Shown: positions 3,347 to 12,469 of the stretch, piece after piece
Position numbering within the stretch: position 1 is the stretch's first letter
Layout: every line of letters starts with the position of its first letter
Assembly: GCA_934636065.1 (NCBI GenBank)
Contig: CAKTZW010000021.1
Span: forward strand, 1 to 12,469
Reading direction: 5' to 3'
DNA: 12,469 nt
Source of the DNA: an uncultured Labedella sp.
Lineage (GTDB): Bacteria > Actinomycetota > Actinomycetes > Actinomycetales > Microbacteriaceae
Made by a program: the position numbers and the translations under genes
The notes under the pieces: generated by a model
Seen by the model: the letters and a program-made list of their open reading frames with translations, nothing else
What the model was told of the DNA's origin: nothing
Database searches by the model: none

Positions 3347-4416
3347 TCGGCCGGATTCGCCGCCGAGCTCTCCGTCGGATCGCTCACAGTGGGGGTCTCG
3401 TGCTCACCGCACGATGCGCGGAGAACGAGGTCGCCCGAGAACAACCGGTGCCGACGCTCCTCGGGAGCCGCGCGATCGAGCAGGGCGGCGACCGATGCGT
3501 CGGCCATCTCCTCGATCGGCTGGCGCACGGAGGTGAGGGCCGGCCAGGAGTACTCCGCCTCCCACGACCCGTCGAACGACACGATCGCGACCTGCTCGGG
3601 GATCGCGACGGCCCGTTCGTGCAGGGCGCGCAGCACGCCGAGCGCGATGAGGTCTGAGGCGGCGAACACGGCGGCCGGCCGGGGGTCGAGGGTCGCCAGC
3701 TCGAGTCCGGCGCGATACCCGCTCCGCCGCGTGTAGGCGCTCTCGAACGACGGTCCCGCCTCGACACCGAGCCGCTCGCACGCGTCGCGCCACCCGCGAT
3801 AGCGCGGCTCGCGCTCGTCCACCTCGCCGATGAAGGCGATGCGGCGGTGCCCGTGTGAGGCGAGATGCTCGGTCGCGAGGACCGCGCCGCCGTAGAGGTC
3901 GACTCCGAGACTCTCGATCCCGGGCTGCTCGTGAACCGTGTTGAGCTGCAGCCACGGGATGCCGATGCGATCGATCGACGCGGGGTCGAGCGAGCCGTCG
4001 CCGGGGACGATGAGCACTCCGTCGACCTGACGGGTGGCGAAGTCGTTGAGCCGCGTGACGACGGCCGCCTGGTCCGGCGAGGTCGGTGTCATGTAGAGGG
4101 CGTAGCCGCGGCGTCGCGCGGCCGCCTCGACGGCGTTCGTGAACTCCGTGAAGAACGGGTTCGCGAACACCGGATCGGGGCCGTCCGGCATGATGAGACC
4201 GAGCGTCCGGGACGACCCCGACTTGAGGGCCCGCGCCGACTGGTTCGGCTGGTACCCGAGCTCCGCGACGGCCCGCAGGACGCGCTCGGCGGTCGCCGCC
4301 GCGACGGGCGCTCCGCCGTTGAGCGTGTAGGTGACGACAGCGTCGCTCACTCCCGCGCGACGGGCCACGTCCGCGCGGGTCGCCCGTCGGCCGCGTCCGG
4401 TAGCAGGCTCCCGCAT
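3343..4416 (-). CDS. LacI-family transcriptional regulator
   Basis: The product has 357 aa, the usual length for the family. The N-terminal HTH is TRADVARRAGVSDAVVTYTL (13-32), followed by NGG and the hinge region NQSARALKSGSS (58-69), which in this family inserts a Leu into a central CpG of the operator. From about residue 70 a periplasmic-binding-protein fold follows (RTLGLIMPD...), with the PAAVFAASDLIALGVLRAL and VAIVSFDGS segments that line the sugar site. It should bind DNA until a sugar or sugar derivative induces release. The two TTTACCCGAGTNAA operators in the 5770-5984 region both have the expected CpG centre and are its likely targets. ATG 4416 is chosen over GTG 4431 because GAGAGGG lies about eight bases before it. 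No copy of the operator precedes its own gene, so autoregulation is not evident. Confidence 0.92.
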   Translation of the reverse strand: MREPATGRGRRATRADVARRAGVSDAVVTYTLNGGAPVAAATAERVLRAVAELGYQPNQSARALKSGSSRTLGLIMPDGPDPVFANPFFTEFTNAVEAAARRRGYALYMTPTSPDQAAVVTRLNDFATRQVDGVLIVPGDGSLDPASIDRIGIPWLQLNTVHEQPGIESLGVDLYGGAVLATEHLASHGHRRIAFIGEVDEREPRYRGWRDACERLGVEAGPSFESAYTRRSGYRAGLELATLDPRPAAVFAASDLIALGVLRALHERAVAIPEQVAIVSFDGSWEAEYSWPALTSVRQPIEEMADASVAALLDRAAPEERRHRLFSGDLVLRASCGEHETPTVSDPTESSAANPAD

Positions 4417-4462
4417 CCCCGTCCCTCTCACGTCGGCCCCAGTATGTCACGGCGCCGGGCGT

Positions 4463-4512
4463 CGCCCTCCTCGTCCGCTCGCCGGGAGGAGGGCGAGCGG
4501 ACGGCGAGGGCG
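4463..4512 (-). terminator. stem-loop after the oxidoreductase gene
   Basis: A perfect 12-bp stem (CGTCCGCTCGCC at 4472-4483 with GGCGAGCGGACG at 4492-4503, 8-base loop) is extended by a 7-bp outer stem (4463-4469 with 4506-4512) across a small internal loop. It begins seven bases after the oxidoreductase stop. No U-run follows, as is common in high-GC actinobacteria. It probably ends or protects the oxidoreductase transcript before the lacI gene. Confidence 0.55.
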
Positions 4513-4518
4513 CGGACG

Positions 4519-5769
4519 TTACTCGTGCTGCGACGCGGGTGCCCCCGCGGTGACGCCGGGGAGTTCGGCAGGGGCGTCACCGAAGTCGGGGATGGGGAGT
4601 CGCTCGCCCCCGCGCAGGGCCGACTCGTGGGCGACCTGGCCCGGCAGGGTGAAGCGCGCGGCGACCCACGCGTTGACGGTGGGGATCGTGCGGTCGTTCA
4701 CCGCGCGGACGAAGTCGTCGACGAGCAACTGGTGAGCGCCCTCGTGACCGTTCGGGGCGACCTCGAAGGAACTCGGAAGGCGCCCGATGAGGTCGTCGTG
4801 CACGGGTGCGTGGCCCGAGACGAACGCCTCCCGGAGCGCCGGTGCGACGTCGGCGAGCAGGGGATCGTCGAGCGAGAGGGTCGGACGCGTCGCGATCTCG
4901 TCGGACACGTCGGTCGCCCCCTCCTTCGTCTGCCAGATCGACGTCGTCGCCAGCTGTTCGAAGCTGCCGTCGGTTCCGAAGAAGGAGAACCGGCTCTCGC
5001 GGAGCTGGGAGGGGTATCCGACCCGCCGGAACTCGTTGATCCGCATCGACCCGCCGCCCGACAGCTCGAAGAGCGCCGTCGCGTTCGAGAAGTCGTTGCC
5101 GAACATGCTCACGCCGCGGTCGAAGACGCCGTCGTTCGACTCGTCGCGCACGCCGATGCAGCTCACGCTCGTCGCATGCGCCGGCAGTGCGCCGAGCACG
5201 CCGCCGATCGAGTGCGTCGGGTACCACATGGGCGGGTAGCTCGCCGTGGCGCGCCAGTCCTCGCCGCCGCTGAAGCGGTAGGCGTCGTAGAAGCCGAGGT
5301 CCATGTCGTGCAGGTAGTCACCCTCGGCGTAGAAGACGCGCCCGAGGCTTCCGTCCGCGAGGCGCTTGCGGGCGAAGACGGTCGCCGGGTTGTAGTAGCT
5401 CGTCTCGCCCATCATGTAGGTGAGGCCGGTCTCCCGGACGGCGTCGATGATCTCCCCGATCTCCGTCTGGGAGACCGCCATCGGCACCGCGGAGTAGACG
5501 TGCTTGCCGGCCCGCAGGGCCTGCACGACGAGGGGACCGTGCGTCCAGCGCTGGGTGAAAATCGCGACGGCGTCGATGCCGTCGTCCTCGAGCATCGCCT
5601 CGAAGCTGTCTCGCGTTCCGGCAAGCCCGACGTCGGCCACGAGTTTCTCGGCGCGGCCGTCGATCACGTCCGTCGCGTAGATCTCGGAGATGCCCGGGTG
5701 CAGCTGGAACAGGGAGGCGAAGTGGGCGGAGAACTGGCCCGCGCCCACCATGCCGAGGGTGAATGTCAT
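4519..5769 (-). CDS. Gfo/Idh/MocA-family oxidoreductase
   Basis: The product has 416 aa. The N-terminal Rossmann fold starts at residue 3 with TLGMVGAGQFSAHFASL, giving the NAD(P)-binding motif GxGxxxA-like at 6-15. VQALRAGKHVYSAVPMA (82-98) is the place where classical members carry the EKP motif. Here the lysine is absent (SAVPMA), seen also in some subgroups of the family. The C-terminal alpha/beta domain includes MWYPTHSIGGVLG (181-193), with His186 a likely catalytic or substrate-binding residue. Such enzymes oxidise or reduce sugars, inositols or their derivatives. Beside a LacI regulator and a sugar importer, it probably converts the imported sugar. ATG 5769 is chosen because the Rossmann motif follows at once and AAGGAC lies about nine bases upstream; earlier in-frame codons run through the promoter and operators. 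Stop TAA at 4521-4519. Substrate not determinable from sequence. Confidence 0.9.
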   Translation of the reverse strand: MTFTLGMVGAGQFSAHFASLFQLHPGISEIYATDVIDGRAEKLVADVGLAGTRDSFEAMLEDDGIDAVAIFTQRWTHGPLVVQALRAGKHVYSAVPMAVSQTEIGEIIDAVRETGLTYMMGETSYYNPATVFARKRLADGSLGRVFYAEGDYLHDMDLGFYDAYRFSGGEDWRATASYPPMWYPTHSIGGVLGALPAHATSVSCIGVRDESNDGVFDRGVSMFGNDFSNATALFELSGGGSMRINEFRRVGYPSQLRESRFSFFGTDGSFEQLATTSIWQTKEGATDVSDEIATRPTLSLDDPLLADVAPALREAFVSGHAPVHDDLIGRLPSSFEVAPNGHEGAHQLLVDDFVRAVNDRTIPTVNAWVAARFTLPGQVAHESALRGGERLPIPDFGDAPAELPGVTAGAPASQHE

Positions 5770-5841
5770 GTTCGTGGGTCCTTCATGATTTGGCCGGGGC
5801 AGGTCATCGAGGCGTCCCGGCGGTGGCGCCGATGACTTGGG

Positions 5842-5870
5842 AGTATTGCATTCCGGTTTACCCGAGTCAA
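5842..5870 (-). promoter_or_regulatory. promoter of the oxidoreductase gene
   Basis: On the minus strand TTGACT (5870-5865) and AATACT (5847-5842) are 17 bases apart, about 75 bases before the ATG at 5769. The -35 lies inside the operator at 5855-5872, so repressor binding should block it. Confidence 0.5.
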
Positions 5871-5872
5871 CC
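5855..5872. promoter_or_regulatory. LacI-type operator 1 (oxidoreductase side)
   Basis: GGTTTACCC/GAGTCAACC is an 18-bp imperfect palindrome with a central CpG; seven of nine positions pair. It shares the core TTTACCCGAGTNAA with the second operator 67 bp away (centre to centre). It overlaps the -35 of the oxidoreductase promoter. Confidence 0.65.
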
Positions 5873-5910
5873 CGCGTGATCCCTGCCGTCATCACGCGCG
5901 GACACGACTC

Positions 5911-5939
5911 TTGCGGCCCGCACTTTACTCGGGTAAAGT
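5911..5939 (+). promoter_or_regulatory. promoter of the ABC importer operon
   Basis: TTGCGG (5911-5916) and TAAAGT (5934-5939) are separated by 17 bases. The -10 is the right half of the operator at 5922-5939, a classic repressible arrangement. A GAAGGA ribosome-binding site at 5972-5977 precedes the ATG at 5985. Confidence 0.55.
5922..5939. promoter_or_regulatory. LacI-type operator 2 (importer side)
   Basis: ACTTTACTC/GGGTAAAGT is an 18-bp palindrome with only one mismatched pair and a central CpG, as expected of LacI-family sites. Its reverse complement carries the core TTTACCCGAGTAAA, matching operator 1. It covers the spacer and -10 of the importer promoter. Confidence 0.75.
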
Positions 5940-5984
5940 CCCCGGCACCGCCATCCCGGCGACCCCACACCGAAGGAATCGACG

Positions 5985-7253
5985 ATGAAGTCACGCACTG
6001 TGGCCGCGACCATGGCGGCCGGCACCGCCGTCCTGCTCGCAGGCTCGTTCACCGGATGCAGCACCGGATCCGGGGGCGGAGGGAAGGAGACCCTCGAGTT
6101 CCAGACCGCGCAATCGGTCGACTCGCCCGTCTACGCCCAGCTGGAGGAGATCACGGCCGCGTTCGAGAAGGAGAACCCGGACGTCGACATCGACCTCAAG
6201 ACCGGCGCCGACGACTACGAACCGCAGATGAAGGTGCGGCTCGCCGCACGGAATCCTCCGGACATCTGGGCGACCCACGGGTGGTCGCTGCTGCGCTACA
6301 GCTCCTTCCTCGCACCGCTCCAGGACGAGCCGTGGGCCGAGAACGTCGACGAGGTCCTCGATCCCGTCATGAAGAACGCCGACGGCGAGTTCTTCGCCCT
6401 CCCCGTCACGACGTCAGCGTCCGGGCTCATCTACAACCGGACGGTGCTCGAGGACGCGGGCGTCGACCCCGCGAGCCTCACGACGTGGGACGCCCTCGCG
6501 GACGCGGCCGAAGCCGTCAAGGCCAACGGGTTCGTTCCGTTCCACCTCGCGGGCTCGAAGGACGGCTCGGCGGGCAACCTCGTCGACTGGATCGCGCCCG
6601 GGGCCTTCACCGACGACGAGCTCGAGTCGATGCGCTCCGGCGAGTTCCAGGAGGACGCGTACGCCGACATGCTTGGACAGCTCGAGCAGATGCAGGCGGA
6701 CGGGTGGACCAACGTGGACTACACGTCGGCCACGGGCGACGACATGGCACGGGCGCTCGCGGAGGGCACCAGCGCCTTCGCGCTCAGCTCCAACGCCCTC
6801 GTCACCCTCGCCTGGACCTACAACCCCGACGCCGAGCTGAGTTACGTGCCGGTGCCCGCGCTCGACGGGGGAGACCCGTACCTCATCGGCGGTGAGGACA
6901 CCGCGTTCGGCGTCGCGAAGGACGGCGAGCACCTCGAGACGGCGAAGGAGTACCTCGCGTTCCTCGCCGAGCCCGAGAACATGTCGGCCCTCGCGGCGGC
7001 CGTCGGCAACCCGCCGGGGCTCACGGACGCCGAACCGGACCTCGGTGCTCTCACAGAACCCTTCGAGCAGTTCGTGGCGAGCGGCACGGTGCCGCTCGAG
7101 CCGTTCTTCGACCGCGTCTACCTGCCGAACGGCATGTGGGACAGCGTCGTCACCACGGCGGACGGCGTGCTCGCCGCCCAGTCGACCCCCGCCGAGGGCG
7201 CCGCGAAGATGGCGAGCGACTTCGACACGCTCTTCCAGCAGTCCTCCAACTAG
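5985..7253 (+). CDS. sugar ABC transporter solute-binding lipoprotein
   Basis: The product has 422 aa. It begins with a lipoprotein signal: basic MKSR, a hydrophobic stretch and the lipobox FTGC, with Cys25 as the lipidated residue. A Ser/Gly linker follows. The mature part has the family 1 extracellular binding-protein pattern: TLEFQTAQSVDSPVYAQLEE, then ITAAFEKENPDVDIDLKTG, later PDIWATHGW, ALPVTTSASGLIYNRTVLED and a late AKEYLAFLAEPENM segment. It captures an oligosaccharide or sugar outside the membrane and delivers it to the two permeases encoded next. ATG 5985 is supported by GAAGGA seven bases upstream and by the signal peptide. It is first in the operon and under the operator at 5922-5939. 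A strong stem-loop follows its stop codon. The sugar cannot be named from sequence. Confidence 0.93.
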   Translation: MKSRTVAATMAAGTAVLLAGSFTGCSTGSGGGGKETLEFQTAQSVDSPVYAQLEEITAAFEKENPDVDIDLKTGADDYEPQMKVRLAARNPPDIWATHGWSLLRYSSFLAPLQDEPWAENVDEVLDPVMKNADGEFFALPVTTSASGLIYNRTVLEDAGVDPASLTTWDALADAAEAVKANGFVPFHLAGSKDGSAGNLVDWIAPGAFTDDELESMRSGEFQEDAYADMLGQLEQMQADGWTNVDYTSATGDDMARALAEGTSAFALSSNALVTLAWTYNPDAELSYVPVPALDGGDPYLIGGEDTAFGVAKDGEHLETAKEYLAFLAEPENMSALAAAVGNPPGLTDAEPDLGALTEPFEQFVASGTVPLEPFFDRVYLPNGMWDSVVTTADGVLAAQSTPAEGAAKMASDFDTLFQQSSN

Positions 7254-7256
7254 TCC

Positions 7257-7286
7257 GCGCGGCGGCCCGGCGACGGGCCGCCGCGC
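7257..7286 (+). promoter_or_regulatory. intercistronic stem-loop after the binding-protein gene
   Basis: A perfect 13-bp stem (GCGCGGCGGCCCG at 7257-7269 with its complement at 7274-7286) is closed by the GNRA tetraloop GCGA. It starts four bases after the binding-protein stop and ends 18 bases before the permease start. Such hairpins protect the upstream mRNA from 3' exonucleases or partly terminate transcription, giving more binding protein than permease. Confidence 0.75.
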
Positions 7287-7304
7287 CGATCGACGGGTGA
7301 GCTC

Positions 7305-8255
7305 ATGACCAACGACGTTCTCGAATCGGCCCCGCCCCGCACTCTCGACCCGGCGCCGCCGCCGGCGCTGCGGCGGCGGCCGAGCCGCTTCCGCGGAGCG
7401 AGCATCAACCTGCTCACCGTGCCGGCGCTCGCCCTGTTCGGGGTGTTCATCATCTACCCGCTCATCAGCGGCGTCGCGATCAGCTTCACCGACTGGGACG
7501 GCTACAGCCCCGACAGCAACTCCGTCGGGGCGGCCAACTACCTGCGCCTGTTCACCGACGAGACGTTCCGGGCCGTGCTGCTCACGACGTTCGTCTACGG
7601 CATCGGAAGCACCATCGTGCAGCAGGTGCTGGGCCTCGGACTCGCCCTGGCCCTCGACCGCAAGCTCGCCGGCCGCGGCGTCGCCCGGGCGATCATCTAC
7701 CTGCCGGTGCTCGTGTCCCCGATCGTCATGGGCACCTTCTACTACCTGCTCTTCCAGTACAACACCGGCGCCTTCAACGACGTCGTCGTCGCGTTCGGCG
7801 GGGAGCGCCAGGCGTGGTTGTCCACCGCGGGCGGCGGCGTGACGATCATCCTCGCGGTCAACTCCGTGCAGTTCGTCGGCACGTCGATGATCATCTATCT
7901 GGCGGGGCTGCAGGCGATCGCGCCGGAGTACATCGAGGCGGCGACCCTCGATGGAGCTCACGCCGGCCAGCGCTTCCTGCACGTCGTCGTGCCGCTGCTC
8001 CAACCGGCCTTCGCGACGAGCGTCGTCCTCAACCTCATCGGCGGGCTCAAGCTCTTCGACGTCATTCAGGTGCTCACGGGCGGTGGTCCGGGCACGTCGA
8101 CGAGCTCGGTGTCGACCCTCATCGGACGCACGTACTTCGACAGCCAGGCGGCCGGCTACTCCGCGGCGATGGGCGTCGCTCTGTTCTTCATCATCGCGAT
8201 CCTCACGATCCTCGCGAACGGGGCGCTCAACCGTCGCCGGTTGGAGCAGCAGTGA
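7305..8255 (+). CDS. sugar ABC transporter permease, MalF type
   Basis: The product is a 316-aa inner-membrane protein of the MalF/UgpA class with about six membrane segments. The first is at about 33-60 (INLLTVPALALFGVFIIYPL). A proline- and arginine-rich cytoplasmic N-terminus of about 30 residues precedes it. The EAA loop that docks on the ATPase is at 211-230 (EAATLDGAHAGQRFLHVVVP). The typical late segment LKLFDVIQVLTGGGPGTST (248-266) is present. It forms the translocation channel with the next gene's product. ATG 7305 follows the stem-loop by 18 bases; its ribosome-binding site is weak (GGGTGA). A short GC hairpin also lies in codons 17-26. Its TGA overlaps the GTG start of the second permease (GTGA), so the two are translationally coupled. 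Confidence 0.93.
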   Translation: MTNDVLESAPPRTLDPAPPPALRRRPSRFRGASINLLTVPALALFGVFIIYPLISGVAISFTDWDGYSPDSNSVGAANYLRLFTDETFRAVLLTTFVYGIGSTIVQQVLGLGLALALDRKLAGRGVARAIIYLPVLVSPIVMGTFYYLLFQYNTGAFNDVVVAFGGERQAWLSTAGGGVTIILAVNSVQFVGTSMIIYLAGLQAIAPEYIEAATLDGAHAGQRFLHVVVPLLQPAFATSVVLNLIGGLKLFDVIQVLTGGGPGTSTSSVSTLIGRTYFDSQAAGYSAAMGVALFFIIAILTILANGALNRRRLEQQ

Positions 8256-9082
8256 ACGCCGTCCTCAGTCGTCGTGCCATCGGAACAGCGATCGGTGCGT
8301 TCGTCCTCCTCGTCGTGGTCGTGCAGCTCCTGCCGTTCTACGTCGCGCTCACGACCGCCCTGAAGCCCAAGACCGACCTGTCGTCGCAGTGGTCGCTTCC
8401 CGTCCTCGACCTGTTCTGGGGCAACTTCGCGACGGCCGTAACCGACGGCGGGATCCTCCGAGCGATGGGCAACAGCGTGATCGTCGCGTCCGTCTCGACG
8501 GTGCTCGTCTGCATCGTCGGGGCCTTCGCGGCGTACCCGCTCGCGCGCCGGCCCACCGCGTACAACCGCGGGATCCTGGCCCTCAACGTCGGCCTCATGA
8601 TGGTGCCGGCGCTCAGCATTCTCGTGCCGCTCTACAGCATGCTCGCGCAGCTGGGAGCGCTCAACACCTATTGGGGCGTCATCCTCGTCATGGTCGCGAC
8701 GAGCCTGCCGATCAGCATCTTCCTCTACGCCTCGTTCATGCGCTCGCTGCCGCTCTCCGTGGAGGAGGCCGCGATGATCGACGGCGCCAACCGGTTCCAG
8801 ACGCTGTGGTTCGTCGTGATCCCGATGCTCAAGCCGGTCACCGCGACGGTGGGCATCCTGACCGGTGTCGGCGTGTGGAACGAGTACGCGCTCTCCGGGT
8901 ACATCCTCACCTCGCCGGAGACGCGCACGATCGCCCCGGCGATCGCGTCGTTCTTCTCGATGCAGTCGAGCAACCTCCCCGCGGCGGCCGCGGCCTCGCT
9001 GCTCGCGGTGATCCCCGTCGTGGTCGCGTACCTCTTCCTCCAGAAGTACTTCGTCCGGGGGCTCGTGGGTGCGGAGAAGTAG
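8252..9082 (+). CDS. sugar ABC transporter permease, MalG type
   Basis: The product is a 276-aa inner-membrane protein of the MalG/UgpE class with about six membrane segments, the first at 9-32 (AIGTAIGAFVLLVVVVQLLP). It has the family signatures LTTALKPKTDL (33-43), GNSVIVASVSTVLV (73-86), the EAA loop EAAMIDGANRFQTLWFVVIP (172-191) and WNEYALSGYIL (209-219). It pairs with the MalF-type permease. The GTG start at 8252 overlaps the preceding TGA by the tetranucleotide GTGA, with GGAG about eight bases upstream; it is preferred because the membrane segment and family pattern begin right after it. No ATPase gene follows, so the complex must use an ATPase encoded elsewhere, as with shared MsiK-type ATPases in actinobacteria. 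Stop TAG at 9080-9082. Confidence 0.93.
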   Translation: MNAVLSRRAIGTAIGAFVLLVVVVQLLPFYVALTTALKPKTDLSSQWSLPVLDLFWGNFATAVTDGGILRAMGNSVIVASVSTVLVCIVGAFAAYPLARRPTAYNRGILALNVGLMMVPALSILVPLYSMLAQLGALNTYWGVILVMVATSLPISIFLYASFMRSLPLSVEEAAMIDGANRFQTLWFVVIPMLKPVTATVGILTGVGVWNEYALSGYILTSPETRTIAPAIASFFSMQSSNLPAAAAASLLAVIPVVVAYLFLQKYFVRGLVGAEK

Positions 9083-9257
9083 ACGAGGAGAGCGGAGATG
9101 GGGTGATTGACCGTGCTATTCCACACCCCGCCCAGGGGTCCACGATCCAGAGCCGTCCGACCGCGTTCTGCTGAAGCGGCGGCACTCCGTCGATTTTCAT
9201 TGGCGTCTATCTCAGTGATCGGCTTTCCAACCGGAGCAGATTTTGGTCGACGCGCTT
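9083..9257. other. non-coding boundary between sugar operon and NTPase gene
   Basis: No convincing gene lies in this stretch. It contains only a weak hairpin at 9125-9139 (ACCCC-N5-GGGGT). Base composition drops in GC towards the right. A 23-codon frame from GTG 9103 to TGA lacks family features and is not called. This gap is the likely edge of an acquired segment, but no tRNA, insertion-sequence end or direct repeat was seen. Confidence 0.4.
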
Positions 9258-9269
9258 TAGATTGATGCT
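9258..9269 (+). promoter_or_regulatory. leaderless -10 element of the NTPase gene
   Basis: TAGATT (9258-9263) fits TANNNT and is followed by exactly six bases and then ATG at 9270. There is no purine-rich ribosome-binding site before the ATG, which supports a leaderless transcript. No good -35 at normal spacing was found. Confidence 0.5.
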
Positions 9270-12200
9270 ATGACCCGAAGTCTGAGCGGGGACAGTGCTG
9301 CCGCATATTGGATGCAAAGTGGCCTCGCCCTCCTGCAGGGCGACCTGCATGCATTCGTCGAAGCGGTGCGCGGTCGGCCCGATGTCGGCCGAGTAGCGGC
9401 GCTCGCCAACAGCGTCTCGGAGGCCTTCGAGGGGCGCGAGTGGTCGTCGCTCGGCACAAATGATGCCGAGGCCGCTCGTGAAGCAGTTGTTGCGACACTC
9501 AAAGAAGTGGCAGGGGATCTTCGTAAGCCCGCTACACGTGACCGCCTCCTTCGCGAAGCAGTCGAGGAATCGTCGGAGTGGACTGATCGCTTCCTGCGGA
9601 GCCGGAGCGTCACGGAGTGTCTGCAGGGATCTCCACCAGACTCTGAGCTCGTTTCCGGGCTCGAGTCGGCGGTTCGCCTGCTCGCGAGCACCACCGCTGC
9701 CTGGGGCAGGCGCAACGAAGGGGACGCCGTCGTTGTGTCCTCTAGTGAGTTGCTTCGCCGGACCCGGGAGCTGTCGCATACGTTGTCGGACGTCCGGGAT
9801 GCTGTGGAGAACCTCCAGACTGAATCGGACATGGCCGCGCGCGAAACGGCCGATACTGTCGTGCGACGGTCCGGCAGGTTGACCGCTGCTCTGGGAAGGA
9901 CTTTCGAGGCAGAGCCGGCACCGGTCGGGTCGTACGCTCTGTTCGTTGAACGCGATGTCGAACTCCGGCTTGCGAGCTTGTTGATCAACCGCGAGGAGAC
10001 CTCTGGCGCAATCTTGGTCCGCGGCAGCGCAGGCTCCGGGAAGTCGAGCCTCTTGTGGGGCATTGCGAAACGCCTCGCCGCCAACCCGCTCGTACACCCA
10101 GTCTTGATCTCGGCGAGCTGGTTTCCTGCCGTAGCGGGAGCGTCGGACGGTATCCCCATCAGGGACATGCTGAAGGCCTTCCGGCTCCTGAAACGGTTGA
10201 CCACGCATCTCGTCGTACTCCTAGACACCGCGGATCTCCTCCTTCATTCCGATGCCTCCAAGGAGGCAACGGAAGACTTCCTGGAGGGACTCGAGGACAT
10301 CGGTGTCGCAGTCGCTGTAGCGGTTCGTCCCGTCGAATCTGAACTTCTCGACGCACGCTTCAGGCGGTTCGACCTGCACAATTACGGCCCAAGCGAAATG
10401 GACAAGGCCACGTCGGCTCTCATGGCCGAGCACTTTCCCAACGAGGACCCATCGCTGGGAATCGATCTGGTTCGTAACGCCCGGGCGCGCGGACTGCCTG
10501 TGCTCGAGGTCTTGCAGTCCCCACTGCTGCTCCGCATTCTTTTCGACCTCGCCGGCGGCACTCTTCCCTCAATGGAAGTGGACGTGACCACCCTCTATCG
10601 CAGGTACTGGGAGCATCGAATAGTCAGTGACCGGCGATCCACCAATGCGAAAGCTGAACGCGACTTGTCGGGGACGGCCAAACGGATCGGGATAGTGATG
10701 CTTGCGGAAGGCTCTCCTGAGCTCTCTATCAACACACTGGTGCAACTCGTCGACCGCGTCGCCTTTCCCGACCCGACGAATCCTTCTGCCGATATCGATG
10801 ACTTGACGGCCAGGGGGGTGCTCACGGTCGGCGGCGAGCAGCGGAGATTCTTCCATCAGACGATGTTCGAGTTCGCGGCCGCACACGGCCTTCTTCACCG
10901 CGGCGGGTTGCGAGAGGCCCGCCGCCTGGTCGAACATATGCGGCAGCATCCGCTCGACCTCTTCGTCGGAGCTGTCCTGGAGCAGATGCTGATTCTGATG
11001 AAGGATGAGTCGTCCTCTCGTGCTTCGGTCTCGGAACTGATCAACGGTCTGTTAGCGGTCGAACAACCGGCGACATCCCAAATCGGCCTCATGGCGTGGG
11101 CGCACCAACCCGCGCTTCGACCCGACGTGCGACCGACAATCGAGTCCGCGCCGCAAGAAACAATCAGTCGCTTCGTTGAGGTTCTCCCGACCGTCGGTTC
11201 CGTCGACGTGACTGATTCTGTACATATCGTGGAGCAGGTATGGGCGTACAGACGAATCGACTGCCACCTCGTGGTGGTGCGCGTCCTGGCGCGGCTAGCG
11301 CGCCGTCATCCGGAGGCGGTAGTCGCTGCGGCAAGGCGGATGGGGATCGTCGACCACTACTGCGGGCCGGCGCGAGCTTCGTTGACGAATCCGGCCGAAC
11401 TCTACGATCTGATTTTCTCCCTCGCCGGAGCCGATCCGGCTTTCGTGCGCAGCGCGGTGAGGCGGCTTCTCGCGTCCGTCGGGCCGGGAGACAGGCAGGC
11501 GGACGTGTTGAGTCTCGTTGCGTCACACTACGCAGAACTGGCCGAGCCTCACTTTTTCGCTGCCCTTGTCAACGATGTCGATACGGACCCGCGCTTGGGC
11601 GGGAAGCCGGTCGGGCGTAGCGTCGTAGCCGCCTTGGGTCGAATTCTCTGGGTTGATCGTTCGAGCGGCGAGGGCGTTCACGATGACCATGGCGACTGGT
11701 TGATGCGTACCCGCGAGAACGTGCCTCGAATCAGACCAGCGCAGTTGGATCTTTCGGTGGGCATCGAGTTGGGCGCGCTGGCCCAGCATCTCATCGCGGC
11801 TGATGAGGGAGCCGTTGGGCGGGTGAATGACATCCTCGACGAGGTCTTCCGAGCACCTGCTGAGGATGGGCCCCCCCAAATCGTGGGAATCCTGCTCGCT
11901 CCTGTGCTCGAGGTGAGCGGGGGAGCCGCGAGGGGTACGTCAGAGCGTTTGGCGGCCTGTTTGGAGAATGGTCTGCCGCTTCCCGGCGACCACTTCGGTC
12001 TTTCTGCTGAGCAGAATTGGGCGATCGCGGCCCGCGCGGCGCTGGGAGACGACCGGGTACCCCGAGAAGTCGTGGCGACATGTCTCGCGCGCTTCGGTGA
12101 AATGAGTGAGCTGTGGTTCGACCGGGGCGGCCTCCTTCCTCACCTTCCGCATGCTGCAGTCGGAGGGCTTTCGGCGGCGCGCTCCTACCTTCGGCATTTG

Positions 12201-12469
12201 CAAGACAATCCTCACGCCTTCGACGCCCTGACACTGCGAGACTTCCTGGAGGCAGCTCGTGCATCGACGAGCGTCGATGAGGGGGTGGCAGCCACATACG
12301 TCAGCGTGGCGCTTGCCGTCGGCGGAGTAGGGCAGCTGAGGCACGCTCTATCGTCGAACACCGGCAGAGCGGCGATCGCTTCACGGCTCGAAGAGGCGTT
12401 GAATCTCGTGGCGACGCTCCTGACTGGACGGGACGACGAGCAAAAGCTCGCGATCTCTCTCTGGAAGGA
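9270..12469 (+). CDS. large STAND/NACHT-like P-loop NTPase (3' end outside window)
   Basis: One frame stays open from ATG 9270 to the window end, 1066 codons without a stop. Residues 1-157 are helical and match no effector domain I recognise. Residues 158-209 look like a coiled coil (ELLRRTRELSHTLSDVRDAV, then ENLQ). FVERDVELRLASLL (225-238) leads into Walker A GSAGSGKS (252-259). Walker B is HLVVLLDTAD (313-322) with Asp319 and Asp322, and VAVAVRP (348-354) is a sensor-like Arg353. SPLLLRILFDLAGG (417-430) and LYRRYWEHR (442-450), then RFFHQTMFEFAAA (526-538), match the helical/winged-helix end of STAND NTPases. Residues from about 540 on are helical-repeat-like, probably a sensor. Such proteins oligomerise when they detect a phage or other ligand and trigger an effector. 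A defence role is inference from architecture. About a third of its early codons end in A/T, unlike its neighbours, which suggests transfer. The start is fixed by an in-frame TAG at 9258-9260 and a -10-like TAGATT. Confidence 0.85.
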   Translation, partial: MTRSLSGDSAAAYWMQSGLALLQGDLHAFVEAVRGRPDVGRVAALANSVSEAFEGREWSSLGTNDAEAAREAVVATLKEVAGDLRKPATRDRLLREAVEESSEWTDRFLRSRSVTECLQGSPPDSELVSGLESAVRLLASTTAAWGRRNEGDAVVVSSSELLRRTRELSHTLSDVRDAVENLQTESDMAARETADTVVRRSGRLTAALGRTFEAEPAPVGSYALFVERDVELRLASLLINREETSGAILVRGSAGSGKSSLLWGIAKRLAANPLVHPVLISASWFPAVAGASDGIPIRDMLKAFRLLKRLTTHLVVLLDTADLLLHSDASKEATEDFLEGLEDIGVAVAVAVRPVESELLDARFRRFDLHNYGPSEMDKATSALMAEHFPNEDPSLGIDLVRNARARGLPVLEVLQSPLLLRILFDLAGGTLPSMEVDVTTLYRRYWEHRIVSDRRSTNAKAERDLSGTAKRIGIVMLAEGSPELSINTLVQLVDRVAFPDPTNPSADIDDLTARGVLTVGGEQRRFFHQTMFEFAAAHGLLHRGGLREARRLVEHMRQHPLDLFVGAVLEQMLILMKDESSSRASVSELINGLLAVEQPATSQIGLMAWAHQPALRPDVRPTIESAPQETISRFVEVLPTVGSVDVTDSVHIVEQVWAYRRIDCHLVVVRVLARLARRHPEAVVAAARRMGIVDHYCGPARASLTNPAELYDLIFSLAGADPAFVRSAVRRLLASVGPGDRQADVLSLVASHYAELAEPHFFAALVNDVDTDPRLGGKPVGRSVVAALGRILWVDRSSGEGVHDDHGDWLMRTRENVPRIRPAQLDLSVGIELGALAQHLIAADEGAVGRVNDILDEVFRAPAEDGPPQIVGILLAPVLEVSGGAARGTSERLAACLENGLPLPGDHFGLSAEQNWAIAARAALGDDRVPREVVATCLARFGEMSELWFDRGGLLPHLPHAAVGGLSAARSYLRHLQDNPHAFDALTLRDFLEAARASTSVDEGVAATYVSVALAVGGVGQLRHALSSNTGRAAIASRLEEALNLVATLLTGRDDEQKLAISLWK

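Follow-up and report, generated by a model that had tools for sequence, protein, structure and literature searches.

The window, a stretch of 12,469 nucleotides from an uncultured Labedella sp., ends within a gene. With moderate confidence we read it as a STAND sensor-switch that consists of one gene, was acquired horizontally and most likely acts against phages or other invaders. Its placement among antiviral STAND proteins was made on anatomy and context; what was observed directly is a layout in three parts, conserved motifs in the NTPase, heads exchanged between relatives, and a foreign composition and genomic position. According to passages of two papers (PMC10907252, PMC8195603), the C-terminus of characterised antiviral STAND proteins senses, and killing proceeds by way of the N-terminus or of an adaptor recruiting an effector.

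Reading frame and domain anatomy

The STAND NTPase reading frame occupies 9270..12467 (+ strand) as 1066 open codons, contains zero internal stops on translation and reads past the window end, as an earlier note on this DNA had described. The ATG taken as its start aligned with that of P0001 (1310 aa), the closest protein found, which matched the window protein over its whole length (40% identity, E 1.1e-212), so the frame is not a chance one. P0002-P0005 (1296-1301 aa) were 32-35% identical to it. Past the common NTPase stretch the window protein has 526 residues vs 765-769 in full-length P0001-P0005, and therefore ~240 residues are missing. GC3 was 0.705 in the STAND gene vs 0.85-0.94 in eight other measured window genes, which bears out the differing codon usage first noticed by eye.

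The NTPase core (residues 218-430, 9921..10559, + strand) was delimited by profile matches and a structure model, with five predicted strands. Walker A (residues 252-259, 10023..10046, + strand) was identified as GSAGSGKS by sequence and alignment, and the Walker B strand (residues 315-322, 10212..10235, + strand), with D319 and D322, by alignment and model; the P-loop core thus carries the Walker A and acidic Walker B of STAND proteins. R353, PLLLRIL from residue 418, LYRRYW at 442-447 and RFFHQTMFEFAAA from residue 526 were likewise located where the earlier note had put them, and most of the motif residues were identical in all five full-length relatives in the alignment. The AlphaFold2 model consisted of helices up to residue 212 and placed five strands within 248-368. 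Ahead of the core lies a helical linker (residues 171-217, 9780..9920, + strand; model, alignment), whose last helix (S201, R203), with the YALFVERD that follows, resembles the pre-NTPase segment in most of 61 family proteins. Behind the core, alignment and model indicated a probable winged-helix unit (residues 466-540, 10665..10889, + strand) with RFFHQTMFEFAAA as its terminal motif; three helices and two strands were modelled over 466-527, at low confidence (block pLDDT 37-61 over 431-530). The remainder (residues 541-1066, 10890..12467, + strand; model, alignment) is a presumed sensor of helical repeats, cut by the window end. Residues 528-1065 were modelled exclusively as helices with pLDDT mostly 70-93, as expected of superstructure-forming C-terminal repeats, and the earlier estimate of more than 500 repeat-like residues agrees with the 526 present here. 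No named repeat family in Pfam matched the window protein.

Profile searches placed the core in the STAND class below family thresholds. AAA_16 matched at E 2.2e-6, under the Pfam cut-off, and nSTAND_NTPase5 (PF25199) matched the same NTPase stretch at E 0.0037, with 17.5 bits vs a gathering cut-off of 34; the latter family stands in the precomputed annotation of 7/46 relatives. The NACHT profile (PF05729) gave 14.6 vs 26.7 bits, so that of the NACHT-like NTPase proposed earlier the STAND-type core stood and membership of Pfam NACHT did not. Bacterial NACHT and NLR-related proteins combine an NTPase with a winged-helix unit, which is probable here too, and with an FxH-type motif. Structure matches of the model spanned residues 187-546; at E <= 0.001, Foldseek matches included NLRP9, NLRP7 and NLRC4, and the best were Avs3 and Avs4, at a low overall TM-score. 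The Avs (AVAST) STAND proteins Avs3/Avs4 share the order of N-terminal effector, STAND NTPase and long C-terminal helical repeats, but PADLOC gave the window protein no sequence-level match to them, and its N-terminus differs. Five PADLOC families matched the window protein at E <= 1 (best E 0.0056); none is named Avs, although the library presumably includes Avs models. The PADLOC candidate PDC-M54A matched 4/7 scanned relatives weakly (P0002, P0008, P0024, P0040), over only ~50 residues, and left the window protein unmatched at E up to 1. The tripartite STAND-type layout originally suggested is therefore retained on profile, model and structure matches.

Heads of the family and the N1 domain

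A family search in which 7994 candidates were scored returned 46 proteins, whose cores align and whose N-termini largely do not. The 41 usable N-termini (40/46 relatives and the window) fell into 22 groups (BLAST, E 0.01). A nucleoside-phosphorylase domain (PF01048) was found in seven relatives, all of one N-terminal group; P0040 carries trypsin and TIR annotations, and the HNH part of P0015 matched PADLOC CBASS-type effectors at E 1e-20. The P-loop of P0039, which is annotated with PF01048, already begins at residue 6; its phosphorylase part may therefore sit away from the N-terminus, or the record may be truncated.

A scan of genome contigs yielded 17 loci of the family, all actinobacterial to judge by the record titles, and Pfam was run on five of their proteins, picked by eye, so that counts of SARP-type and diadenylate-cyclase fusions are lower bounds. 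An N-terminal diadenylate-cyclase domain (PF02457) was detected in L004 (7202-13483, + strand; E 1.8e-13) and L010 (9140-15475, + strand; E 9e-10). Each of these proteins, ~2100 aa long, also has NB-ARC parts, TPR parts and a second STAND-type NTPase, which belongs to the window's family; possibly they are c-di-AMP-making immune or signalling proteins. BTAD preceded the related NTPase in L013 (9215-13258, + strand; E 9.7e-8), together with Trans_reg_C, and in L015 (9065-13243, + strand; E 3.6e-8). One NTPase chassis therefore serves regulator-like as well as effector-like proteins, and family membership alone is no proof of immunity. Pfam found nothing at the N-terminus of L009. In L008 (9803-13330, + strand), a short N-terminus takes the place of N1 and includes one stretch of strong hydrophobicity (hydropathy 2.29).

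In a tree built from 56 cores, the N1 proteins made up one side of a branch, adjoining P0007, with a support of only 74; the support for the seven together was 99. Head labels changed 12 times on this tree, the minimum for 13 groups, and therefore each head type arose once within the sample. The head distribution reflects exchanges of long ago, not rapid shuffling.

N1 (residues 1-170, 9270..9779, + strand), an all-helical N-terminal domain, was delimited by BLAST grouping, model and alignment. Among the relatives found, it is common only to the window protein, P0001-P0005 (P0002 is the protein of L001, P0005 that of L003) and L002. Identity to the window copy was 18-32% in N1 vs 39-51% in the NTPase and winged-helix stretches. 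The fourteen invariant columns of the N1 alignment hold Leu, Trp, Ala, Pro, Gly, Phe and two Arg, and zero Asp, Glu, His, Lys, Cys, Ser, Thr, Asn, Gln or Tyr, hence no catalytic-type residue. N1 contains no strongly hydrophobic segment (19-residue hydropathy 0.93). Modelled alone, it was all-helical at pLDDT 67, and this separate model had no fold match. The idea of amphipathic helices was rejected, five of six sequences being no more amphipathic than shuffles; the window value was reached by 157/500, and P0005 was the sole outlier of the six (9/500). A search of open-licence literature, not directed at the N1 sequence, found no description of N1, and the N-terminus reported as unrecognised has stayed so. 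With few candidates scored per genome, N1 had clear matches in 2/366 genomes in the genus and 1/396 in the order, and the whole STAND protein matched 6/398 genomes in the family, two of them with N1. The simplest reading is that N1 is a structural signalling domain, and we commit to a helical domain without enzymatic activity, for signalling or oligomerisation, rather than a nuclease, an NADase or an effector that spans the membrane.

Genomic position and neighbourhoods

Other genes of the window include TetR, SnoaL, hydrolase, LacI, oxidoreductase and sugar ABC transporter genes. The genome G112, best of 398 Microbacteriaceae, matched window 3407-9080 at 83%, and G025 matched most of the same segment at 71-76%. 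In both, synteny ends at the stop codon of the ABC permease gene (9080) and other genes follow, so the STAND gene begins <190 bp from the break; a whole-protein family search found no relative of it in either genome. Residual homology to G112 past the permease stop was rejected, 19/300 shuffles scoring as high. The spacer (9083..9269, no strand), defined by the synteny end and a hairpin scan, holds one terminator-like hairpin at 9177-9192 (0.2 expected) between the permease and STAND genes, and no sigma-70-like promoter was found in it. An acquired defence island had been suggested; foreign composition and the synteny break agree with acquisition, and the window, which stops within the STAND gene, shows no island. 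A phage origin was rejected, as no phage record or viral contig encodes a relative. Relatives were encoded in 5/72,556 plasmid records, all from Streptomyces, with coverage of at most 50%.

Neighbouring genes were scored with PADLOC for ten proteins, from L001, L002, L003 and L008 only; the other 13/17 loci were covered by open reading frame listing, with gene calls that are GC-based picks rather than annotation. In L001 (Microbacterium pullorum), a 1008-aa protein of SIR2-like and STAND parts (6062-9088, + strand) is encoded 0.9 kb upstream of the N1 STAND gene. It matched a STAND NTPase at E 5.1e-7 and SIR2_2 at 5e-4, the latter under the cut-off, and had no PADLOC match at 1e-5. L001 also has a TraG-type coupling protein and an integrase nearby; two different STAND genes thus stand there in tandem on a mobile element. 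In L002 (M. testaceum), type I restriction genes start 3.4 kb downstream of the STAND gene. ParA, DUF3800, T4SS-type genes and a TrwC relaxase surround that of L003 (Plantibacter), yet the gene that follows it immediately codes for DNA polymerase III alpha. In L008, which lacks N1, a Vsr-type gene lies 4.4 kb downstream. Defence-type neighbours of relatives, which the earlier note had named as a test, were therefore found at two single loci, L001 and L002.

Upstream of their STAND genes, L001 (11-4894) and L003 (2978-6658) carry the same succession of three conjugation-type genes, 37-43% identical, which points to related integrative elements as carriers. The STAND proteins of L001 and L002 share 88% identity, and the genes around them differ. 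The window, L001, L002 and L003 neighbourhoods have no small partner gene in common; only the STAND gene itself and the conjugation genes recur around N1.

Candidate function and alternatives

In the preferred reading, the C-terminal repeats would bind an invader component, and binding would free the NTPase/winged-helix module, which would then swap ADP for ATP and oligomerise. The clustered N1 heads may signal growth arrest or death, N1 either recruiting an unrelated host protein or being itself toxic once clustered. Layout, composition and the relatives' defence neighbours argue for the candidate immune sensor named at the outset, and the SARP fusions leave family membership insufficient for it. 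In a bolder and less probable reading, N1 would found an undescribed helical signalling domain whose clustering, in a self-sufficient Microbacteriaceae STAND system of one gene, would kill the cell with neither enzymatic or membrane-spanning activity nor a homotypic partner.

We consider it unlikely that the protein has no immune role and belongs instead to the STAND-type regulators of transcription or signalling that, like MalT or the AfsR/SARP proteins, control host physiology. The L013 and L015 fusions are consistent with such a regulator, as is the position immediately after a sugar ABC operon that includes a LacI regulator, but this SARP pair branches elsewhere in the tree than the N1 proteins, the nearest genomes G112 and G025 lack the gene behind the same operon, and STAND relatives occupy other, mobile contexts. 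The N-terminal Trans_reg_C/BTAD that is clear in L013 and L015 was not found in the window protein; neither it nor P0001, P0002, P0003 or P0005 gave any HTH or BTAD match (Pfam, E up to 5), and the C-terminal ends of those four relatives gave no HTH match under the same search. An AfsR- or LuxR-like regulator, which the earlier note had set against its own proposal, thus finds no DNA-binding match in the visible part, ~240 C-terminal residues lying outside the window.

For N1 itself, an adaptor of the effector-associated-domain type, recruiting a separate effector that bears the same domain, seems rather unlikely. Adaptors of this kind appear for bacterial STAND systems in passages of PMC8195603 and PMC10907252, and a helical domain whose conservation is non-enzymatic would suit one; however, G001, G002 and G003 each contained one N1 and no second copy (E up to 1, all candidates scored), so that no other protein there shares the domain, and N1 neighbourhoods have no common candidate partner gene. 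This argument leaves room for a partner that binds through some unrelated interface. It is improbable that N1 is a distant enzyme or a helical toxin that disrupts membranes directly: hydrophobic N-terminal segments do occur in several relatives (19-residue hydropathy 2.29 in L008, 1.83 in P0018, 1.76 in P0035), and L008, P0017 and P0018 fall within the 11 rows closest to N1 on the tree, but N1 has neither such a segment, nor helices more amphipathic than shuffles, nor an invariant catalytic-type residue.

A STAND sensor with an exchangeable N-terminus was already known. Added here are an Actinomycetota family whose one chassis of NTPase and repeats bears many different N-termini, and within it a small set with an undescribed helical head. 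Close relatives differ chiefly in their heads, and the family therefore amounts to a natural swap experiment: N1 can be set against heads whose activity is known (phosphorylase, HNH, TIR), on a comparable chassis, for a clue to its role. The window protein carries a rare front domain and is probably encoded by an acquired anti-phage gene whose general kind is known.
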